Origin: Okeania sp. SIO3B5
GTDB taxonomy: Bacteria; Cyanobacteriota; Cyanobacteriia; Cyanobacteriales; Microcoleaceae
Assembly: GCF_010692555.1 (NCBI RefSeq)
Contig: NZ_JAAHHG010000008.1
Coordinates: 1-56,646 of the forward strand
Direction of reading: 5' to 3'
Length of the DNA: 56,646 nucleotides
Shown one piece after another: positions 27,555 through 35,998 of the stretch. How positions within the stretch are numbered: the first letter of the stretch is position 1; every line of letters begins with the position of its first letter. The notes beneath the pieces are model-generated. The model ran no database searches. It saw nothing but the letters and a program-made list of their open reading frames with translations, and was not told where the DNA came from. The translations under genes and the position numbers were made by a program.

Positions 27555-28750
27555 TAACCAATACTGGCGCTCTCGGCGCAGCTCACTATTCCCTCGGCAG
27601 TAAATGCCCCTGGGAATTTCTTATCTTATATTTGAAGACTGCCATTAACATCGGCATTAATAACTATACCAGTTCCACTCCGTTTGGAAACCGCGTTTGA
27701 CTCGCTTGCCTACATAGAATTCAATAGCATATTGGTTTTTCTCGCGTCAATAGCAGATGTTTTACTGGTATAACAATCTTGCTGTTTCAATTACCTTGAT
27801 TCCTGCCAGTTGACATTTATAAGTTATCTGTTCAATTAGCTTGGAGTGAGGTATTTGGGTAAATTTTTGGTTGTTGATTTTGCCAATGTTTGCACCTTGT
27901 TTCCAATTATCATTTTTTCCAATTACTACAGTACCAATATTATTAGTCACTAAATAATTGACAACTAACTTACTGGTGTTATGCAGGTAATTCTCCACAA
28001 AACGATTTCTATGATAACTCAATGCTTTAATCTTACGGCTGGTTTTTCTGTTGCCTTTGAGATGACTTTGGTACTTGGCTTTACGCTTATTATACAGTTG
28101 ATTGACGCTTTTTAGTGGCTTCCCATTAACAAGGAATGGTTTCACACCAGGCTTGGCAAGTAGCTAGAGCAACTAATCTATCAATTCCTAAGTCTATTCC
28201 GGCTACATATGTTGAGTGTATTTGTGGGTGAAGAGTTTTTTCATAGACTACTTCAATTATATAGCAGGCAGTAGCAGGTACTATCCTCACTTCGATTACA
28301 GTATCCACAACTACAGGTATGCATGATTTCACTCATTGATAAGTGACAAATACCATCTTTTAAAGGGGCTTTATAGACTGATTCCTTTGAATATATAACT
28401 ACATTCCTACCTTGAGTTTTATTCTTATACTTTGGTATTTTGGGTTTACCTAAAAACTTTTGTGGATATTTTAACCATTCTTTTATAGCTTGAAAATAGC
28501 TACGCCAAGTGGCAACCAAGCATTTTATTATTTGTTTTGATACTTTAGTTGGCAAGGCTCTATAAGCATCGCTATCTTTGGTGGCGTGGTACAGTTTAGT
28601 TAGTGAGAGACTTTTACCAGTACAGAAAAAATGCTGACGACAGTTATAGTTAGCCAAGTTATATAGGTTTTTTGACTTAAAAGCTAACTCATCACACACC
28701 TGCCAAAAGTTATGTGTTCGTCTAATTATATGTCTGTCAACAACTTTCAT
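27555..28750 (-). pseudogene. Decayed TnpB gene
   Basis: Read from 28750, the fragments in order are: N-terminus MKVVDRHIIRRTHNFWQVCDE (28750-28253), the first RuvC block AGIDLGIDRLVALAT (near 28170), KPFLVNGKPLKSVNQLYNKR (28138 down), GTVVIGKNDNWKQG and FTQIPHSKLIEQI, then after a stop GKRVKRGFQTE near 27700 and an ADVNG block near 27650. Several frameshifts and stops make it non-coding. A reading on the other strand at 27491-27700 is its shadow. Confidence 0.85.
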
Positions 28751-28954
28751 GGGTCTGTCTACTCAAATTTTGTGGCCCTCGCCCGTGATTACTATAATGC
28801 TCGAAATCATTCATTACCTAAATTTACGTTTTCTATTAACTTGTTTAATATTACAATACTTTTCTACGTTTGACAACTATTTTCTACAGTTTAAGTTTAA
28901 CAGTTAATAACCCTTAATCCTGACGTTAACTATTATTTGATCGAGGAGCAGATT

Positions 28955-30070
28955 TTGAACTATAAACCAGATCCAATAGATACTTCCAAGGTAAATCTGA
29001 CAACAGAACATTTAAAAATCACTGAATTACTGGCTAAAAATACCCATGAAATTTGGGCAAAACAGCGAATTTCTGAAGGTTGGAAATATGGAAAAAATCG
29101 AGATGATGCCCAAAAATTACATCCTGGTTTAGTGCCTTATGAAGAATTGCCAGAGTCAGAAAAAGAATATGACCGCGTTGTTTCTATGGGAGTAATTAAA
29201 ACTCTTTTAGCCATAGGTTATCGAATAGAAGGAAGCGAAACTACTACTGAAAAAACTGCTACAGTTGATGATAGTAATTTATCCTTAATTTTAGAAAGTT
29301 TAAAAAAATCATCCCAACTAAATTTAAAAAGTTTACAAACAATTCGTCGAGAAACTATTAATCTCCATTTGCGTTACCCAGAAATTTTTCGGATTTTGGG
29401 TGAATATATCCTGAAACTTGGGGAGCCATTAATGGCTTATGATATTTTATCGGAGGGGTTAAAAGAATGGCCGAATGATATCCGTTTACAACAACTTTTA
29501 GCTTTGAGTTTAGCTCGCAGTGGGGCAACTCAGCGGGCGAATAATTTATTATTGGAGTTAGTAAACTCTGGTAAAAATGATGAGGAAACTATTAGTTTGT
29601 TAGCCAGGACTCACAAAGACTTGTGGCAGCAAGCAAGCTCTCCAGAGGAAAGTGCCCAACAAATAGCATTGGCAGCTCAACGATATCAACAAGCTTATCA
29701 AATGAGTGGGGATTATTATCCGGGGATAAATGCTGCGACAATAACAATGTTGATGGGAGATGCTGAAACAGCAAAGGCGATCGCTGTTGAAGTACGGGAA
29801 AAATGTTTGGCTGAACTCCCACCAGTTTCTCAGAGGAGTGAGAATAACTACTGGTTACTAGCAACTTTGGGAGAAACTGCTTTAATTTTGGGGGAAAATT
29901 CTGAGGCAGAAGATTGGTATAGTCAAGCTGTGAAGCAAAGTAAGGGTGGATTTGGGAATTTAAGTTCGACTCGTCGTAATGCTACTTTAATCCTAGAATA
30001 TCGACAAGGAGATATTAATTGGGTTAAAAATTGTTTGCCTATTTCTAGGGTAATTAACAGCTTGACATAA
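28955..30070 (+). CDS. RyR and TRAFs-binding domain protein, 5' half of an interrupted gene
   Basis: The first 100 residues match the bacterial RyR domain (NYKPDPIDTS, THEIWAKQRISEGWKYG, RDDAQKLHPGLVPYEELP, EKEYDRVVSMGVIKTLLA). The next 250 form a TPR-like region of the TRAFs-binding type (SLLARTHKDLW, YYPGINAATITMLMGDAETA). I chose the TTG at 28955: it gives MNYKPDP, the usual RyR start, six bases after GGAG; a TTG at 28937 is possible. After RVINSL the frame enters the inserted TnpB element and stops at once. The continuation resumes in frame at 31309. The intact gene would encode about 762 residues ending in a cyclase. The half protein could still fold, but loses its predicted output. Confidence 0.8.
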   Translation: MNYKPDPIDTSKVNLTTEHLKITELLAKNTHEIWAKQRISEGWKYGKNRDDAQKLHPGLVPYEELPESEKEYDRVVSMGVIKTLLAIGYRIEGSETTTEKTATVDDSNLSLILESLKKSSQLNLKSLQTIRRETINLHLRYPEIFRILGEYILKLGEPLMAYDILSEGLKEWPNDIRLQQLLALSLARSGATQRANNLLLELVNSGKNDEETISLLARTHKDLWQQASSPEESAQQIALAAQRYQQAYQMSGDYYPGINAATITMLMGDAETAKAIAVEVREKCLAELPPVSQRSENNYWLLATLGETALILGENSEAEDWYSQAVKQSKGGFGNLSSTRRNATLILEYRQGDINWVKNCLPISRVINSLT

Positions 30071-31308
30071 TCTATGGTTATCTAGTATTATCTATGATAA
30101 TCTATCTTTGATTTTATGCTACTAGGATTCAAAACTGAGTTACATCCTAATAATCGTCAAAAAACGTTACTGGCTAAACACGCTGGTGTAGCCCGTCATG
30201 CTTATAATTGGGGACTATGGTTAACTAGGAATATTCTTAATCACAACTCTAATAATCCTGAGAGTAAACTTAAATTTCCTACTGCTATTGATTTGCATAA
30301 ACTTTTAGTAGCAATGGTTAAACCTAATAACTATTGGTATTATGAAGTATCTAAAACAGCACCCCAATATGCTTTGAGATATTTATCATCAGCTTGGAAG
30401 CGTTGCTTTAGTAAAGTGTCAGCTCAACCTAAATTCAAGAAAAAAGGTAGAGATGATAGTTTCACTTTAGATGGTTCAATATCGGTAGGTTTTAATCGTA
30501 TAAAACTGCCTCGAATTGGATGGGTAAAAACATTTGAAATCTTGCCAGATAATGTTACCCCTAAATCTGTAACTATAACTAAAAAAGCCGATGGTTGGTT
30601 CATTAGCTTCAAGATAGAAACCGAGACTCAAGTCACTGAGAAATCAGTTGATGTAGTTGGTGTAGATTTAGGTATAAAATCTCTAGCTACGTTATCTACT
30701 GGTGAGGTTTTTGTTGGTGCCAAATCTTACAAAAAGTTAGAATCTAAACTATCACGACTGCAATATCTAAACCGACATAAAGTCAAGTTTTCGTCTAATT
30801 GGAAAAAAGCGCAACTCAAGATAGCTCAACTGCATAGCAAAATAGCCAATATCAGAAAAGATACATTACATCAATTAACAACTTATTTGGCTAAAAACCA
30901 CAGCAAAATAGTAATAGAAGACTTAAATGTATCAGGCATGATGGCAAATCACAAGCTAGCTAAGGCTGTTGGCGACATGGGTTTTTACGAGTTCAGAAGA
31001 CAGCTTAAATACAAATGTGAGTTATACAGTTCTGAGCTAATCATTGTTGATAGATGGTTTCCTAGTTCTAAGACTTGCAGTAGGTGTGGAACTGTTAAAG
31101 AGTCTCTGTTTTTATCAGAGCGCGTCTTCAATTGCGAACACTGTAATTTTAGCTGTGATCGAGACTTGAATGCAGCGTTAAATTTAGCTATGGCGGTCAG
31201 TTCGACCGTGACAGCTTGTGGACTGGATAACGCCGACGTTGCCAGAATGAAGCAGGAATAGAACAGATCATCATAGATTTCTATAGATTATCGTAGGTTT
31301 CTAAGAAC
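30067..31308 (+). mobile_element. IS200/IS605-type element with tnpB only
   Basis: The bounds are inferred from the host gene: the left flank ends TTGAC (30062-30066), the right flank starts GGTAGTAGTA, and deleting 1,242 bases restores the frame. The ends have inverted blocks, CTATGATAATCTAT (left) and ATAGATTATCGTAG (right). There is no target duplication and no tnpA, as expected of IS1341-like, non-autonomous members. Confidence 0.75.
30116..31261 (+). CDS. tnpB: TnpB RNA-guided nuclease of an IS200/IS605-type element
   Basis: A 381-residue full-length TnpB, the only intact one in the window. The N-terminal helix-turn-helix region (MLLGFKTELHPNNRQK, HAGVARHAYNWGL) is followed by the split RuvC domain: Asp184 (VGVDLGIKSLATLS), Glu268 (IVIEDLNVSGMM) and Asp350 (CDRDLNAALNLA). 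A zinc ribbon with two CxxC pairs, CSRCG and CEHC, lies between the last two. All three acidic residues are present, so it should cleave DNA guided by an omega RNA from the right end. No TnpA is near, so movement would need one in trans. Confidence 0.93.
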   Translation: MLLGFKTELHPNNRQKTLLAKHAGVARHAYNWGLWLTRNILNHNSNNPESKLKFPTAIDLHKLLVAMVKPNNYWYYEVSKTAPQYALRYLSSAWKRCFSKVSAQPKFKKKGRDDSFTLDGSISVGFNRIKLPRIGWVKTFEILPDNVTPKSVTITKKADGWFISFKIETETQVTEKSVDVVGVDLGIKSLATLSTGEVFVGAKSYKKLESKLSRLQYLNRHKVKFSSNWKKAQLKIAQLHSKIANIRKDTLHQLTTYLAKNHSKIVIEDLNVSGMMANHKLAKAVGDMGFYEFRRQLKYKCELYSSELIIVDRWFPSSKTCSRCGTVKESLFLSERVFNCEHCNFSCDRDLNAALNLAMAVSSTVTACGLDNADVARMKQE

Positions 31309-31328
31309 GGTAGTAGTATTTAGTGGTC
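31140..31328 (+). ncRNA. Predicted omega RNA with guide
   Basis: In this IS family the TnpB guide RNA comes from the tnpB 3' end and right end, with the guide being the first 16-20 bases of flanking host DNA. Here that would be GGTAGTAGTATTTAGTGGTC (31309-31328), inside the split gene. The RNA fold and start are not determined. Confidence 0.4.
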
Positions 31329-32485
31329 ACATGATTGATGAGCCAGGGCGCACAATACCTAGATTTCCGCCAGAGATAGAATCACAGGTTTATGAGGCAA
31401 TTCGCGATCGCCTAATTCAGTTAGATGCTCGTTTGGGTTATGCTTCAGCAGCTTGTGGTAGTGATATTTTATTCCTTGAAGCTTTGTCTGCATTGGAGGG
31501 GGAGACTCATATTGTCTTGCCCCATGAGCGAGAAAATTTTCTGAAAGAATCTGTTGATATTATCCCTAATAGTAATTGGCGACAACGGTTTGAGCAAGTT
31601 TTGGAAAAAGCGACAGAAGTGATTATTCCAACTCATTATAATCTTGAACAAAGCAATATTGTCTATGAATACACAAATAGGATACTCTATGGGTTGGCAA
31701 AAATGCGGGCACAACAGTTAGATACAGAACTTATACCAATGGCTGTTTGGAATCAACAAATTGGTGGGATAGGTGGTACAGCAAAGGCTGTAGAATTTTG
31801 GCGACAATGGAACAATAATGTGGAAATAATTGATATTCAGCAGATTTTAGAATCTGTGATGACAAAGAAAGTAGAGATTGTAAATACAGTATCTACAATG
31901 CCAACTTTCTTGCAACTAACTTCTACCCCAGAAGACGAAAATCATTTAATTATGGCGTTGTTATTTGCAGATGTTAAGAGTTATTCTAAGTTGAAGGAAA
32001 ACCAGATTAGTCTATTTGTAGAACATTTTCTTGGTGCATTTGCCAATTTTGAAGCTAAATCTTCTTATAAACCAGTAATGAAAAATACTTGGGGAGATGC
32101 TTTATATTATGTATTTTCTCATGTCAGGGATGCGGGTTTATTTGCTTTGGAATTATGCAATCTTGTTCAGAGTACAGATTGGGAAAAAGTAGGGTTGCCG
32201 GCAAGTTTGAATTTACGGGTAGCGTTACATACAGGGGTGGTTTATAAATATACTAATCCCATCACTGGGATGACAACTTACAGTGGTACTCATGTGAGTT
32301 ATGCTGCTAGGATTGAACCTATTACGCCACCAGGAAAGGTTTATTCAAGTCAAGCGTTTGCAGCGATGGTAGCTTCAGAGGGGGTTAAGGAATTTACTTG
32401 TGATTATGTGGGGCAAACTTCTTTGGCTAAATCTTATGGTACATTTCCTACTTATCATGTGCGACGTTATGGGGGTGGTTTTTAA
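31309..32485 (+). CDS. SLOG-like domain and class III cyclase, 3' half of the interrupted gene
   Basis: The coding remnant runs in frame from the insertion junction; an isolated product would start at ATG 31331 (384 residues). The N-terminal Rossmann-like part (FPPEIESQVYEAI, GYASAACGSDILFLEAL, THIVLPHERENF) resembles SLOG domains, and its first strand VVVFSGH is encoded upstream of the ATG. The C-terminal part is a class III nucleotidyl cyclase with metal-binding Asp214 (LLFADVKSYSKL) and Asp256 (NTWGDALYYVF) and transition-state Arg327. The base-selecting Lys and Asp of adenylyl cyclases are Asn252 and Thr316 here, and the usual Asn of VNxAAR is Ser323. The product is therefore uncertain. 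No good RBS precedes 31331. Confidence 0.8.
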
Positions 32486-32794: not shown

Positions 32795-35700
32795 TTAAAT
32801 TGTTGATTTAGGTTTGATTAAATAGAAAAATATACAAACCCAAAATGTTAAACTAGGCAAAAACAAAGGCAATAAGATTGCAGAACTAATATAAATTTGT
32901 AGACTAGCTAAACTATAAATTATATTTAATAAAAATAGTAATAACCAAATACTTTTTTGTTTGTACCCTATAGAATAATTTTCTAATATTAATACTATTC
33001 CTTTCCCTAACACAATAGCTACCCCAATTAGCCATAAATCAGGAATAGGTATAACTAATCTTTGGTTCAGGAAATGATGAACCATATAAGCATGAATTTC
33101 TCCTCCTGTAAATGCCCTACTAGGATTAGGCGGTTGCTTTTCAGAACGCCAGTAACTAACAGCAGCAGGTAAAGGAAAATGGTCTTTTCCTCGCATAAAT
33201 TGTGCATCTTTATATCCAGCAGCAATAATCACTATTGATGGAAGTTTTTCTAGTTTAGTTGTGGCTAATAATTGGTCTTTGCTACTTTCCAAAAGTTCCC
33301 AAGCTGGTAAACGAAGAAAAACTACTTCTGGAGGAATAGAAAAATCTATAATTGGATGCAGCCACATTTGCCCTAATCGATAAGAAAACTTAGTTAAAGG
33401 TTGTAAGCGAGATGAGCTAGAAAATAATTCCAAAAAATGTTTACCTGCAGTATGAACAATCTGAGGTTGCAGCCAATTCTCAGATTGTTGCGCGTTGAAC
33501 ACATGAGCAACTGCTAACAGATAAGCAAAGGGCAATGGTTTTTTAGCGGAATATTTCCTTGGTAGTAGTGTTACATGGGTAACGTAACGGCCATAACCTA
33601 GTACGCGAACATTTCCTTGTAGTCGCCAGTTAGGAGAAGCTAGCTCTGGTAATACTTCAAACCAACCACCAGAAAGATTCTGGGATGTAGCAAATACAAA
33701 CCAAGTATTTTGTTTTTCTATTGATGAGCGTAAAGTTTGGGCTAGCTTTGTATCATTTTTGGGTTGATAGCGGTCAAAAAGATAGTCAAAACCAATAATT
33801 TTGGTGTTGATAGTTATCAGTTTATCGACAATTTTAGCAATATAACTACGATCCATTGGTAGAGGATCGAATATTTTGGCTTTTTTTAGGGAATCTTCGT
33901 CAATTTCCACTAACAGCACAGGCGGTGTATTTTTCCTCTCAACTTGATTGGTAAATTGACGATACATAGCTTGCACTAATACTCGCTTTTCAATCAAAAA
34001 ACGTTGAGTTGACAATTGCCAACTAAATAAAATTAATATACTTATAGCGATCGCTTCTAAAGGTCTAAAAATAATTCTTTTTGCTTTCTTCTGTAACTTT
34101 TGTAAAGGTTCAACTTTTGGCTTACTCTTAAGAATAAATTCCTTCATATCCTTAGTTACTGGAGGCTGCTTAGATTTTGTTATTGCTAACTGTAACCACT
34201 CATAAGCTCTCGTATATTCACTTCCCCGCAGCAGTAAATCTATAGTTTTATTTCTTTGGTTCCATTCCAACGCCTTATGCAATATTTTAGTATGTTCCCG
34301 CACATATTCTCTATCTATATTTAAGGTTCGCACCAACTCAGTAAAATTAGCAGAAAAGTCTCCCCCATACTGATTAAAATCTAACCATTGCACTTTTGCT
34401 AATTCTGGATGTAATTCCGCAGGATTAACTTTTCGATGCAATACTGTCACAAATCGTTTATTTAAACTTTTGGCATATTCGACTTCATCAGCACAATAAG
34501 GAGAATTTACCGACTCTGGAGAAATAATAAATAAGAAATTATCCGACTGCTCAATTCCACGATAAATTTCTTGTTGAAAATCTGTGCCTGTAGCAATGCT
34601 TTCTTGGTCAAACCAAGTAGTTTTTCCCTGAGTTTGTAAAGCATCATTTAACTGTCGAGCAAAATCTGAATCTGCTCTGGAATAAGAAACAAAAACATCT
34701 AAAACTAAATTAGGTGGTTGTTTAGCACTTTCTGTAATAAATTCTGTTTGTAAATCTGTGGGTAAATTAGCCGTTCTATTCCCAGCTAATTCCAGCCAAC
34801 TTTGATATTGTTCGAGATTATAACCCCGTAATAAAATACTAGGGTTACGATTTTGTTCAAGCCATTTCAAAGCTTTGACTAATAAAATTTTATGTCGTTG
34901 ATAATAAACAGCTTCTGACTTTAATTCTTTCAGGAGTTTATCTATTCCTTCTGGCTCTGAGGCAGTAAAATCAATCAATTGTAAATTACTTATTTGCGGA
35001 GGAATTTTTGTTAAATCTGTGGGAGAAATTAAGATAGGAATAATTCGTTTATTCAGACTCAAAGCATAAGTTAATTCCTGTTGGCAATATTCAGATTTTA
35101 TGGCTTCAGGAGACAATAAATAAATTAGATTATCCGCTCCAGCAATTCCTTGATTAATTTCTATTTGAAAATCTTTTCCAGTTTTAATATCGGCATGAGA
35201 ACTCCAGACAGTAATTCCTGAACGCATCAAACTTTTCCTGATTTGCTCCATGATACTTTTATTTGCTTCAGCAAAAGCCAGGAAAACTTGAGTCATTAAA
35301 TTATTAGCATTTTTATCACTTTCACAGATAAATTCACAATGTAAATCTGTAGGAATACAAGGGGGTTGTTCTTCTGTAAATTTAATCTTTAACCATTTTT
35401 CTGCTTGTAGACGTTCTTTTCCAATTAAGAGATAACGAGTTTGTTTTTGATTCTTCTCCCAGTCTAAACCTTTAACTAAAATCTTAGTATGTTGTTTGAC
35501 ATAATCTTGGTGACGATTAAATAATTCGATTAAGTCAGTTAAACTTTTGTCAAAATTATCAATATTTTCTCGAAAATAAACCCAGTTAATTCTACCTATT
35601 TCAGGGTGCATATTGGGAAAGCTGGAATGTTTACCTTTTTGTTGATAAATCTCCCATTCTTCTAAAGTTCCTTGAGGATTTCGTTGTTGCCAAATTTCAT

Positions 35701-35998
35701 AAGTAATTTGTTCGACGTGAAGCAGGGGAATAATTCGTTTATTGTATTTAATAGCTAATTCTATTTCTTTGAGACAGTAGGGAGAATTAACAGAATGAGG
35801 GGCAATAATAAACAGAAAATTATCAGCTTTTATGATGCCATCATCAATTTGATTTTGAAAGTCTACTCCCAGAGGAATATCATTTTGGTCAAACCAGATT
35901 TTTAGACCATTTTCTGTGAGTTTTTCATAGAGTTTTGTGGCAAAAGATTTACTGTCAGCACGTCCGTAAGAGATGAAGGCATTGTAATATTCTAACAT
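32795..35998 (-). CDS. Triple TIR, CHASE2 membrane protein
   Basis: A 1067-residue protein. Three TIR domains lie at about 3-140 (YNAFISYGRADSKSFA), 235-355 (VFLAFAEANKSI, degenerate start) and 433-560 (VFVSYSRADSDFA). Each keeps the acidic helix SPYCLKEIE / SEYCQQELT / SPYCADEVE, where the NADase Glu lies. Each is followed by a cyanobacterial linker of the type HTKILxKALxWxxN. A transmembrane helix (about 645-670) leads to a periplasmic CHASE2 domain (VLLVEIDEDSLKKA, IIGFDYLFDRYQ), then three C-terminal helices (about 985-1060). Usually CHASE2 and its helices come before the output; here the output is N-terminal. It faces the split cyclase gene. An NADase or scaffold role is inferred. Confidence 0.87.
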   Translation of the reverse strand: MLEYYNAFISYGRADSKSFATKLYEKLTENGLKIWFDQNDIPLGVDFQNQIDDGIIKADNFLFIIAPHSVNSPYCLKEIELAIKYNKRIIPLLHVEQITYEIWQQRNPQGTLEEWEIYQQKGKHSSFPNMHPEIGRINWVYFRENIDNFDKSLTDLIELFNRHQDYVKQHTKILVKGLDWEKNQKQTRYLLIGKERLQAEKWLKIKFTEEQPPCIPTDLHCEFICESDKNANNLMTQVFLAFAEANKSIMEQIRKSLMRSGITVWSSHADIKTGKDFQIEINQGIAGADNLIYLLSPEAIKSEYCQQELTYALSLNKRIIPILISPTDLTKIPPQISNLQLIDFTASEPEGIDKLLKELKSEAVYYQRHKILLVKALKWLEQNRNPSILLRGYNLEQYQSWLELAGNRTANLPTDLQTEFITESAKQPPNLVLDVFVSYSRADSDFARQLNDALQTQGKTTWFDQESIATGTDFQQEIYRGIEQSDNFLFIISPESVNSPYCADEVEYAKSLNKRFVTVLHRKVNPAELHPELAKVQWLDFNQYGGDFSANFTELVRTLNIDREYVREHTKILHKALEWNQRNKTIDLLLRGSEYTRAYEWLQLAITKSKQPPVTKDMKEFILKSKPKVEPLQKLQKKAKRIIFRPLEAIAISILILFSWQLSTQRFLIEKRVLVQAMYRQFTNQVERKNTPPVLLVEIDEDSLKKAKIFDPLPMDRSYIAKIVDKLITINTKIIGFDYLFDRYQPKNDTKLAQTLRSSIEKQNTWFVFATSQNLSGGWFEVLPELASPNWRLQGNVRVLGYGRYVTHVTLLPRKYSAKKPLPFAYLLAVAHVFNAQQSENWLQPQIVHTAGKHFLELFSSSSRLQPLTKFSYRLGQMWLHPIIDFSIPPEVVFLRLPAWELLESSKDQLLATTKLEKLPSIVIIAAGYKDAQFMRGKDHFPLPAAVSYWRSEKQPPNPSRAFTGGEIHAYMVHHFLNQRLVIPIPDLWLIGVAIVLGKGIVLILENYSIGYKQKSIWLLLFLLNIIYSLASLQIYISSAILLPLFLPSLTFWVCIFFYLIKPKSTI

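Follow-up and report, generated by a model that had tools for sequence, protein, structure and literature searches.

An interrupted gene in Okeania sp. SIO3B5

The window analyzed here, a 56,646-nucleotide stretch of Okeania sp. SIO3B5 (contig NZ_JAAHHG010000008.1, positions 1 to 56,646; assembly of 11.06 Mb in 789 contigs), contains a predicted multidomain gene that is divided between one open frame ending at 30070 (start at 28937 or 28955) and another at 31310-32485, with a tnpB gene in between (Table 1). A preliminary description had proposed that a TnpB element split a single gene for RyR, TPR-like TRAFs-binding, SLOG-like, and class III cyclase domains, and had linked that gene to nucleotide-based conflict systems. 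As far as sequence comparison reaches, this observation and its interpretation were partly confirmed: the split, the domains, and the link held, while the ends of the element and the notion of a reversible switch did not.

Table 1. Features of the interrupted locus, in positions of the window
Feature	Position	Strand	Description	Basis
Split gene, 5′ part	28955..30050	+	TTG start after GAGGAG; ends ...PISR	Homologs L010-L012 continue from that residue
RyR domain	28961..29230	+	Residues 9-98; HWHD ligand residues	Pfam PF02026, E=7.9e-34
TPR-S and MAP3K TRAFs-binding region	29447..30007	+	TPR-like helical; helices 107-361 in model	Pfam PF20308, E=1.3e-24; PF13281, E=7.8e-11
Left GG core, insertion site	30049..30050	.	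CTAGGG, then TAATTAACAG	Empty-site comparison
IS607-type TnpB element	30051..31310	+	1,260 bp; lacks a recombinase gene	Empty site in three relatives; ends common to other copies
Element-encoded stop codon	30068..30070	+	Closes the 5′ frame	Sequence
tnpB	30116..31261	+	381 residues; RuvC motifs GVDLG/IEDL/RDLNAA; C4 zinc ribbon	Pfam PF01385, PF07282, PF12323
Right GG core	31309..31310	.	CTAAGAACGG	GG after right end in 21/21 copies checked
SLOG (YpsA-like) domain	31310..31855	+	Coordinates transferred from O. hirsuta protein	O. hirsuta domain model; Foldseek
Split gene, 3′ part	31311..32485	+		Sequence; homolog alignment
Class III nucleotide cyclase domain	31943..32467	+	Coordinates transferred from O. 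hirsuta model	Pfam PF00211, E=8e-6; Foldseek
Adjacent TIR gene	32795..35998	-	Three TIR domains, hydrophobic segments, CHASE2; CxxE in each TIR	Pfam

With the 3′ part as query, 388 genomes of the order gave 13 matches at an E value of ≤1e-40, the window genome's own counted in. The 387 other genomes thus contributed 12 uninterrupted homologs, with open frames of 748 to 810 residues and no stops, and the joined Okeania protein aligned with all 12 over nearly its full length at about 55 to 94.5% identity; none was encoded as two separate genes or misaligned at the join. The three closest at the DNA level (L010, L011, and L012, 92 to 95% identical) run uninterrupted across the insertion site. An empty site, CTATTTCTAGGG-TAGTAGTATTTAG, occurs in these three relatives and was exact in 3 of the 196 genomes searched. 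An uninterrupted cyanobacterial homolog and an empty site in related strains, the checks suggested by the preliminary description, were accordingly both found. Judged from these alignments, the two frames are one gene interrupted by a TnpB element, and the split is real.

The stop codon supplied by the element ends the first frame after PISR-VINSLT, beyond the helical region, and a genome search with either half of the gene returned one match only in its own genome; the protein is therefore probably lost, and loss of its function through the insertion is likely. Within the 3′ part the first remaining ATG, at 31331, lies inside the SLOG domain and past its first strand, VVVFSGH. The insertion would then be a natural knock-out of the only gene copy found in this genome and a useful marker. 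The earlier proposal was that the insertion switches the gene off, perhaps reversibly; reversibility is not supported, as the element has no recombinase and no empty allele was found in its own assembly within 3 mismatches.

Ratios of nonsynonymous to synonymous substitution (dN/dS) between the halves in the window and the three relatives were 0.14 to 0.24, resembling the 0.19 to 0.26 among intact relatives, so that the halves bear no sign of decay. Given this overlap the ratio cannot date the insertion, and it was dropped as a clock. The closest relative by synonymous divergence (dS) differed between the halves, being L065 (0.066) for the 5′ half and L060 (0.134) for the 3′ half; these different nearest relatives of 28955-30050 and 31311-32485 hint at intragenic recombination.

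The inserted element

The element contains tnpB as its sole gene, and no serine recombinase TnpA was found within 30051-31310. The residues of the tnpB product that form the RuvC D-E-D site and the zinc ribbon are presumably those of the motifs in Table 1. At its junctions the window reads CTAGGG-TAATTAACAGCTTGAC...CTAAGAACGG-TAGTAG, and owing to the GG repeat the coordinates 30049-31308 are equivalent to those given in the table. The preliminary description had placed the element at 30067-31308 (1,242 bp), a join that is 18 bp off. The 18 nucleotides before that join have no counterpart in L010, L011, or L012 and open other copies of the element in the same genome (e.g., L003, L024, and L027); they therefore belong to the element, which is longer by that amount, and the join at 30067/31308 was rejected. 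Exact removal yields PISR-VVVFSGHMID in a protein of 762 residues from the TTG at 28937, or 756 from the TTG at 28955, the latter start having been picked by eye. Of the read-through INSLT-VVVFSGHMID given earlier, VVVFSGHMID stands, but the element encodes the six residues that precede VVVF; similarly, a length of about 762 residues holds from 28937, although it had been reached as 756 residues from 28955 plus those six. That 1,242 is divisible by 3 carries no weight as evidence, because full-length copies vary in length and GG-to-GG excision restores the frame at any length.

Recombination between GG dinucleotides has been reported for IS607 elements, as has a GGG target motif for the TnpB of ISXfa1 (PMC10711439). 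With GG at both ends and an empty site in relatives, the inserted sequence is, by comparison, an IS607-type TnpB element without TnpA, and as an IS607-type event the insertion is ordinary. Altogether 42 matches to the element, whole and partial and including the window copy, were found in its own genome. Among 21 copies tallied for their ends (repeat fetches of single copies, L004, L036, and L037, excluded), GG followed the right end in every case, and 17 matched a left-end pattern that includes GG, of which 16 read GGG; in L034 the GG lies one base further out, and L002 is cut by a contig end. Like the IS607 (ISXfa1) and IS1341-like TnpB-only elements, the window element combines GG bounds and GGG before its left end with a RuvC and zinc-ribbon TnpB; it differs in having no TnpA inside, and a guide RNA of the RAGATH-18 type, which occurs in one IS607 branch, is not supported. 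Three observations count against the assignment: copies L005 and L022 (2 of 21) have no GG at the left end, the Rfam match to RAGATH-18 at 31215-31258 scored 23.7 bits against a cut-off of 44.9, and no such match was found in 13 other copies at E≤1. This weak and unrepeated guide-RNA match was set aside as support. An insertion of the IS200/IS605 type next to TTGAC was also rejected, since TTGAC is internal to the element, whose boundary is GG.

Mobilization in trans is possible and perhaps likely, as one of the 15 resolvase-family matches in the genome lies in a 207-residue open reading frame (ORF) behind a left end of the type common to other copies; no right end was found behind it within the 5.3 kb read. 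The best long matches to the window copy in five genomes of the genus, among the matches listed, were 87% identical, which indicates that it is not a fresh local duplicate.

The element family was present in all five genomes of the genus examined (its own and four relatives), with 43 to 60 matches each, and two left-end types, TAATTAACAGCTTGAC and CTTGTAACTGTTGG, occur in the Okeania sp. SIO3B5 genome. Immediately ahead of the split gene, at 27762-28750 on the minus strand, are the remains of a second tnpB gene, broken into overlapping frames; OrfB_IS605 matched in 27765-28145 and not in 28256-28750.

Domains of the intact protein

Pfam matches, a predicted structure, and Foldseek together support the domains that the preliminary description had named. 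An AlphaFold2 model of the intact Okeania hirsuta homolog (L065), computed with 63 relatives, had a mean predicted local distance difference test score (pLDDT) of 90.8 and comprised RyR helices, TPR-like helices (107-361), an alpha/beta domain (366-553), and a cyclase (578-752). The strand VVVFSGH, just downstream of the insertion, is the first strand of the Rossmann-like domain (366-372 in the model), so the element sits immediately upstream of the first SLOG strand, and joining the halves restores a strand that the description had found missing. For the whole model all 50 Foldseek matches listed were cyclases, with class III cyclases at a best E of 1.2e-7; the Pfam guanylate cyclase match in the 3′ frame was barely above its cut-off. 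The intact protein is thus, as predicted from profiles and fold, a RyR, TPR-S, SLOG, and class III cyclase protein.

When the middle domain was modeled alone (pLDDT 93.4), its best Foldseek match was YpsA (2nx2; E=3.5e-7, template modeling scores 0.69/0.72), followed by DprA and ShosA and, lower, by molybdenum cofactor carrier proteins and LOG. A SLOG sequence profile found no match among PDB chains up to E=10, and Pfam returned no SLOG match in the window protein. The fold supports a YpsA-like SLOG domain where sequence profiles fall short. PADLOC gave weak matches only (best E=0.0098), and all NCBIfam matches were below their cut-offs. No description of a RyR/TPR-S/SLOG/cyclase protein was found in our literature search; the 2015 survey of nucleotide conflict systems by Burroughs and colleagues and a 2020 survey lay outside its coverage and may list the architecture. 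The 2020 survey reportedly named TPR-S.

A widespread family with TIR neighbors

A scan of genome contigs that retained the best 80 of 102 relatives gave 77 family loci. Going by record titles, these belong to Cyanobacteria, Acidobacteria, Verrucomicrobia, Planctomycetes, several groups of proteobacteria, and other taxa. The alignment retained 64 of these members; it excluded L085, L086, L105, L114, L133, and L135, whose match was broken by frame or, for L086, by unknown bases, L095, whose frame was unusually long, and L066, L088, L116, and L127-L129, close kin of retained members. Among the 64, TPR-S was present in 62, the cyclase in 62, and RyR in 22.

At the positions that we take to be the metal-binding aspartates of the cyclase, D587 and D629 were each kept in 63 of 64 members, as was R700, presumably the arginine of the catalytic NxxxR motif. 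A GxD/E motif has been described for YpsA/SLOG proteins (PMC6459960), and here G416 and D418 were each kept in 60 of 64. The RyR ligand residues H32, W35, H57, and D74 (O. hirsuta numbering) have the spacing of H75, W78, H100, and D117 in the phage protein RyDEP; 23 of the 24 RyR-bearing members had all four, the remaining one having Thr at the second His.

The preliminary link to conflict systems is supported by the neighborhood. By a local profile, 24 of 77 loci had a TIR ORF as their immediate neighbor on one or both sides, filling 25 of 149 nearest slots, and 32 loci had one no more than about 9 kb away; none occurred in the 321 gene slots at ranks 5 to 8. Nineteen of the rank-1 TIR ORFs, in 18 loci, were on the same strand and ≤145 bp away or overlapping, by mechanical ORF calls. 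Pfam TIR_2 was found in 11 of the 52 nearest neighbors scanned downstream and in 12 of the 59 scanned upstream. The scan drew on 147 near ORFs; of the nearest ones with ≥150 residues, it covered 52 of 57 on the downstream side and 59 of 60 on the upstream side. The ORFs omitted were those downstream of L063, L088, L128, L129, and L135 and upstream of L128; leaving out the gene downstream of L088, which encodes TIR-WD40, makes the TIR count lower. Among 102 distant genes (of 104, two of L065 excluded), TIR_2 was not one of the 25 families listed, the last of which had 2 members. The loci in the TIR counts are partly dependent, related Maricaulis and Nostoc species being among them. TIR partners carried WD40, TPR, or no further clear Pfam domain, and CHASE2 in the window; in L067 and L073 the WD40 came from Pfam and the TIR from the local profile. 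On these profile-based counts, the gene belongs to a widespread, TIR-linked family.

Two further neighbors were named by eye: a separate small SLOG-like ORF with a CHASE2-like ORF at three verrucomicrobial loci (L091, L096, and L097 among the loci named), and a subtilisin-like ORF near seven loci (L068, L071, L091, L093, L097, L133, and L135).

A candidate signaling relay and its alternatives

From the domains and the neighborhood we infer that the intact protein would be both receiver and relay in a TIR-linked signaling system, possibly an immune pathway. TIR proteins make cyclic ADP-ribose (cADPR) isomers, of which 3′cADPR is sensed by the SLOG domain of ThsA (PMC11204291); YpsA-like SLOG domains include cADPR sensors (PMC9503650); and phage RyR-domain proteins were reported in a 2026 preprint to bind or cleave 2′/3′cADPR via H75, W78, H100, and D117 (PMC13232231). 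Reception of ADP-ribose signals is known or has been proposed for RyR and SLOG domains, which fits an order with TIR upstream. When triggered through its sensor end, which is CHASE2 here and WD40 in relatives, the neighboring TIR protein would make an ADP-ribose-derived messenger from NAD+; the RyR domain, the SLOG domain, or both would bind it; and the ligand-bound change would reach the C-terminal class III cyclase, which would make a cyclic mononucleotide as a second signal, with the TPR-S region possibly serving as sensor or scaffold. The whole scheme would amount to Thoeris with a cyclase replacing the SIR2 effector, a Thoeris/Pycsar-like hybrid. To its most novel form, a widespread two-messenger immune relay in which a cyclic ADP-ribose isomer made by a TIR receptor opens a RyR/SLOG-gated cyclase, we give a probability of roughly one in three.

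The combination of an IS607-type insertion, this TIR-linked scheme with a receiving and relaying cyclase protein, and a TnpB that keeps the insertion in place seems to us, on sequence grounds, about evenly balanced between right and wrong. In its last part, suggested by IS607 work elsewhere (PMC10711439), an active TnpB with the right flank as guide would cut an empty allele beside GGG, so that the insertion would be retained and would not act as a switch.

Were the relay real, a ryanodine-receptor-type domain in a bacterial protein would be a receptor for a TIR signal, and two families of immune signals, NAD-derived ADP-ribose isomers and cyclic mononucleotides, would be linked in one protein. 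It would also give bacterial RyR domains a cellular role and provide a testable setting for how cADPR relates to ryanodine receptor domains.

Thoeris (TIR ThsB with SIR2-SLOG ThsA) is among the closest known systems. There too a TIR gene stands beside a SLOG-bearing partner, and an NAD-derived messenger is received by SLOG, as is proposed here from sequence and fold. Of its traits, a directly adjacent TIR gene is present in the window and in 24 of 77 loci and so is not universal; a SLOG (or macro) receiver in the partner is present, as a SLOG fold with YpsA as best match; and a SIR2 or membrane-spanning effector in the partner is absent, the catalytic partner being a class III cyclase, with RyR and TPR-S added. 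RyDEP and its kin share PF02026 and the four equally spaced ligand residues (PMC13232231), but they are stand-alone phage counter-defense proteins, whereas here RyR forms the N terminus of a multidomain protein of bacteria that is TIR adjacent in some loci. In the NTP-dependent conflict systems of multicellular bacteria, cyclic mononucleotide cyclase, TIR, and SLOG are named as interchangeable signal domains (PMC7159879); those systems are built on vWA-MoxR and similar, and RyR does not occur in that text.

Several findings weigh against the relay. The TIR and cyclase genes of the window are convergent and 310 bp apart, so that the pair forms no operon there. At 45 of 77 loci the local profile detected no TIR ORF up to about 9 kb away, although at 45 loci, too, the available sequence ends less than 9 kb from the gene on one side or both. 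A family-made profile detected RyR in at least 24 of 77 members, frame-broken genes being cut, and the presence of RyR was not significantly linked to a nearby TIR gene (13 of 24 versus 19 of 53, p=0.14). The ThsA SLOG was not among the 50 PDB matches listed for the middle domain. In the cyclase, the position taken to be the catalytic Asn of NxxxR is Ser in 39 of 64 members and Asn in 12, and the presumed purine-selecting site, N625, is Asn in 59 of 64, neither the Lys nor the Glu that we assume to be usual, which makes both the activity and the substrate uncertain. Finally, the RyR ligand residues are conserved across PF02026 at large (PMC13232231), so that they fit ligand binding without singling out this family.

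The main rival, in our view unlikely, reverses the order in the manner of Pycsar: the cyclase protein would be the phage sensor, and its cyclic mononucleotide would activate an NAD-depleting TIR effector. Pycsar (PycC with PycTIR or PycTM) likewise sets a class III-type cyclase beside a TIR gene, and cyclase and TIR genes are adjacent here, often on the same strand (the 19 rank-1 ORFs above). PycTIR, however, carries a cyclic-nucleotide-binding domain (PMC11224242), and none was detected in the TIR neighbor of the window or in 8 of 10 scanned TIR neighbors with full family lists (the other two are WD40 rich, with 25 families listed each); its lack in the fully listed partners speaks against this order. 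The cyclase of this family also carries RyR, TPR-S, and SLOG, whose suggested role as ADP-ribose receivers fits TIR upstream, and the residue two positions ahead of the second Asp, Lys104 in AnPycC of clade D, is Trp here.

A somewhat less probable reading is an ordinary cAMP/cGMP signaling protein that senses a metabolite (e.g., the level of NAD or ADP-ribose) and has TIR genes nearby through a large conflict-gene repertoire. The 45 loci without a TIR ORF and the broad spread over phyla would suit it, but TIR ORFs fill 25 of 149 rank-1 slots versus 0 of 321 at ranks 5 to 8, an enrichment that general conflict-gene richness does not explain.

Still more doubtful is a role in removing ADP-ribose signals, by breakdown or by sequestration, with RyR as a RyDEP-type glycosidase or sponge and SLOG as a processing enzyme; the protein would thereby damp TIR signaling, the cyclase reporting its state. 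The RyDEP catalytic pair His75 and Asp117 is kept with equal spacing as H32 and D74 in 24 of 24 RyR-bearing members, yet 6 of 8 tested RyDEP homologs bound signals, and homologs besides RyDEP did not cleave them (PMC13232231); RyR was, moreover, found in only 24 of 77 members, and a cyclase requires an input.

A reversible phase switch, in which precise loss of the element in part of the population turns the gene on, is highly improbable: GG-to-GG excision would restore the frame exactly, and the genome has 15 resolvase-family matches, one behind a shared-type left end, but the element has no recombinase, the 207-residue recombinase had no right end behind it in the 5.3 kb read, the assembly held no empty allele within 3 mismatches, the best of the listed long matches in the five genomes is at 87% too distant for a fresh local duplicate, and TnpB would be expected to act against empty alleles.

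The adjacent triple-TIR gene

The TIR gene that the two-messenger relay would place upstream varies at its other end. Its triple-TIR part is 84 to 87% identical between Okeania strains and 57% identical in L062. At the C terminus, by contrast, the window protein carries CHASE2, and its counterparts in L061, L065, and L062, from related Okeania and a Microcoleaceae genome, carry WD40. A conserved triple TIR joined to differing C-terminal parts indicates that the sensor end was exchanged, and the Okeania triple-TIR protein is, on these comparisons, a case of a CHASE2/WD40 sensor-end swap. In O. hirsuta, a 196-residue ORF next door (L065:13191-13781) matches the final part of the window TIR protein at 70% identity.

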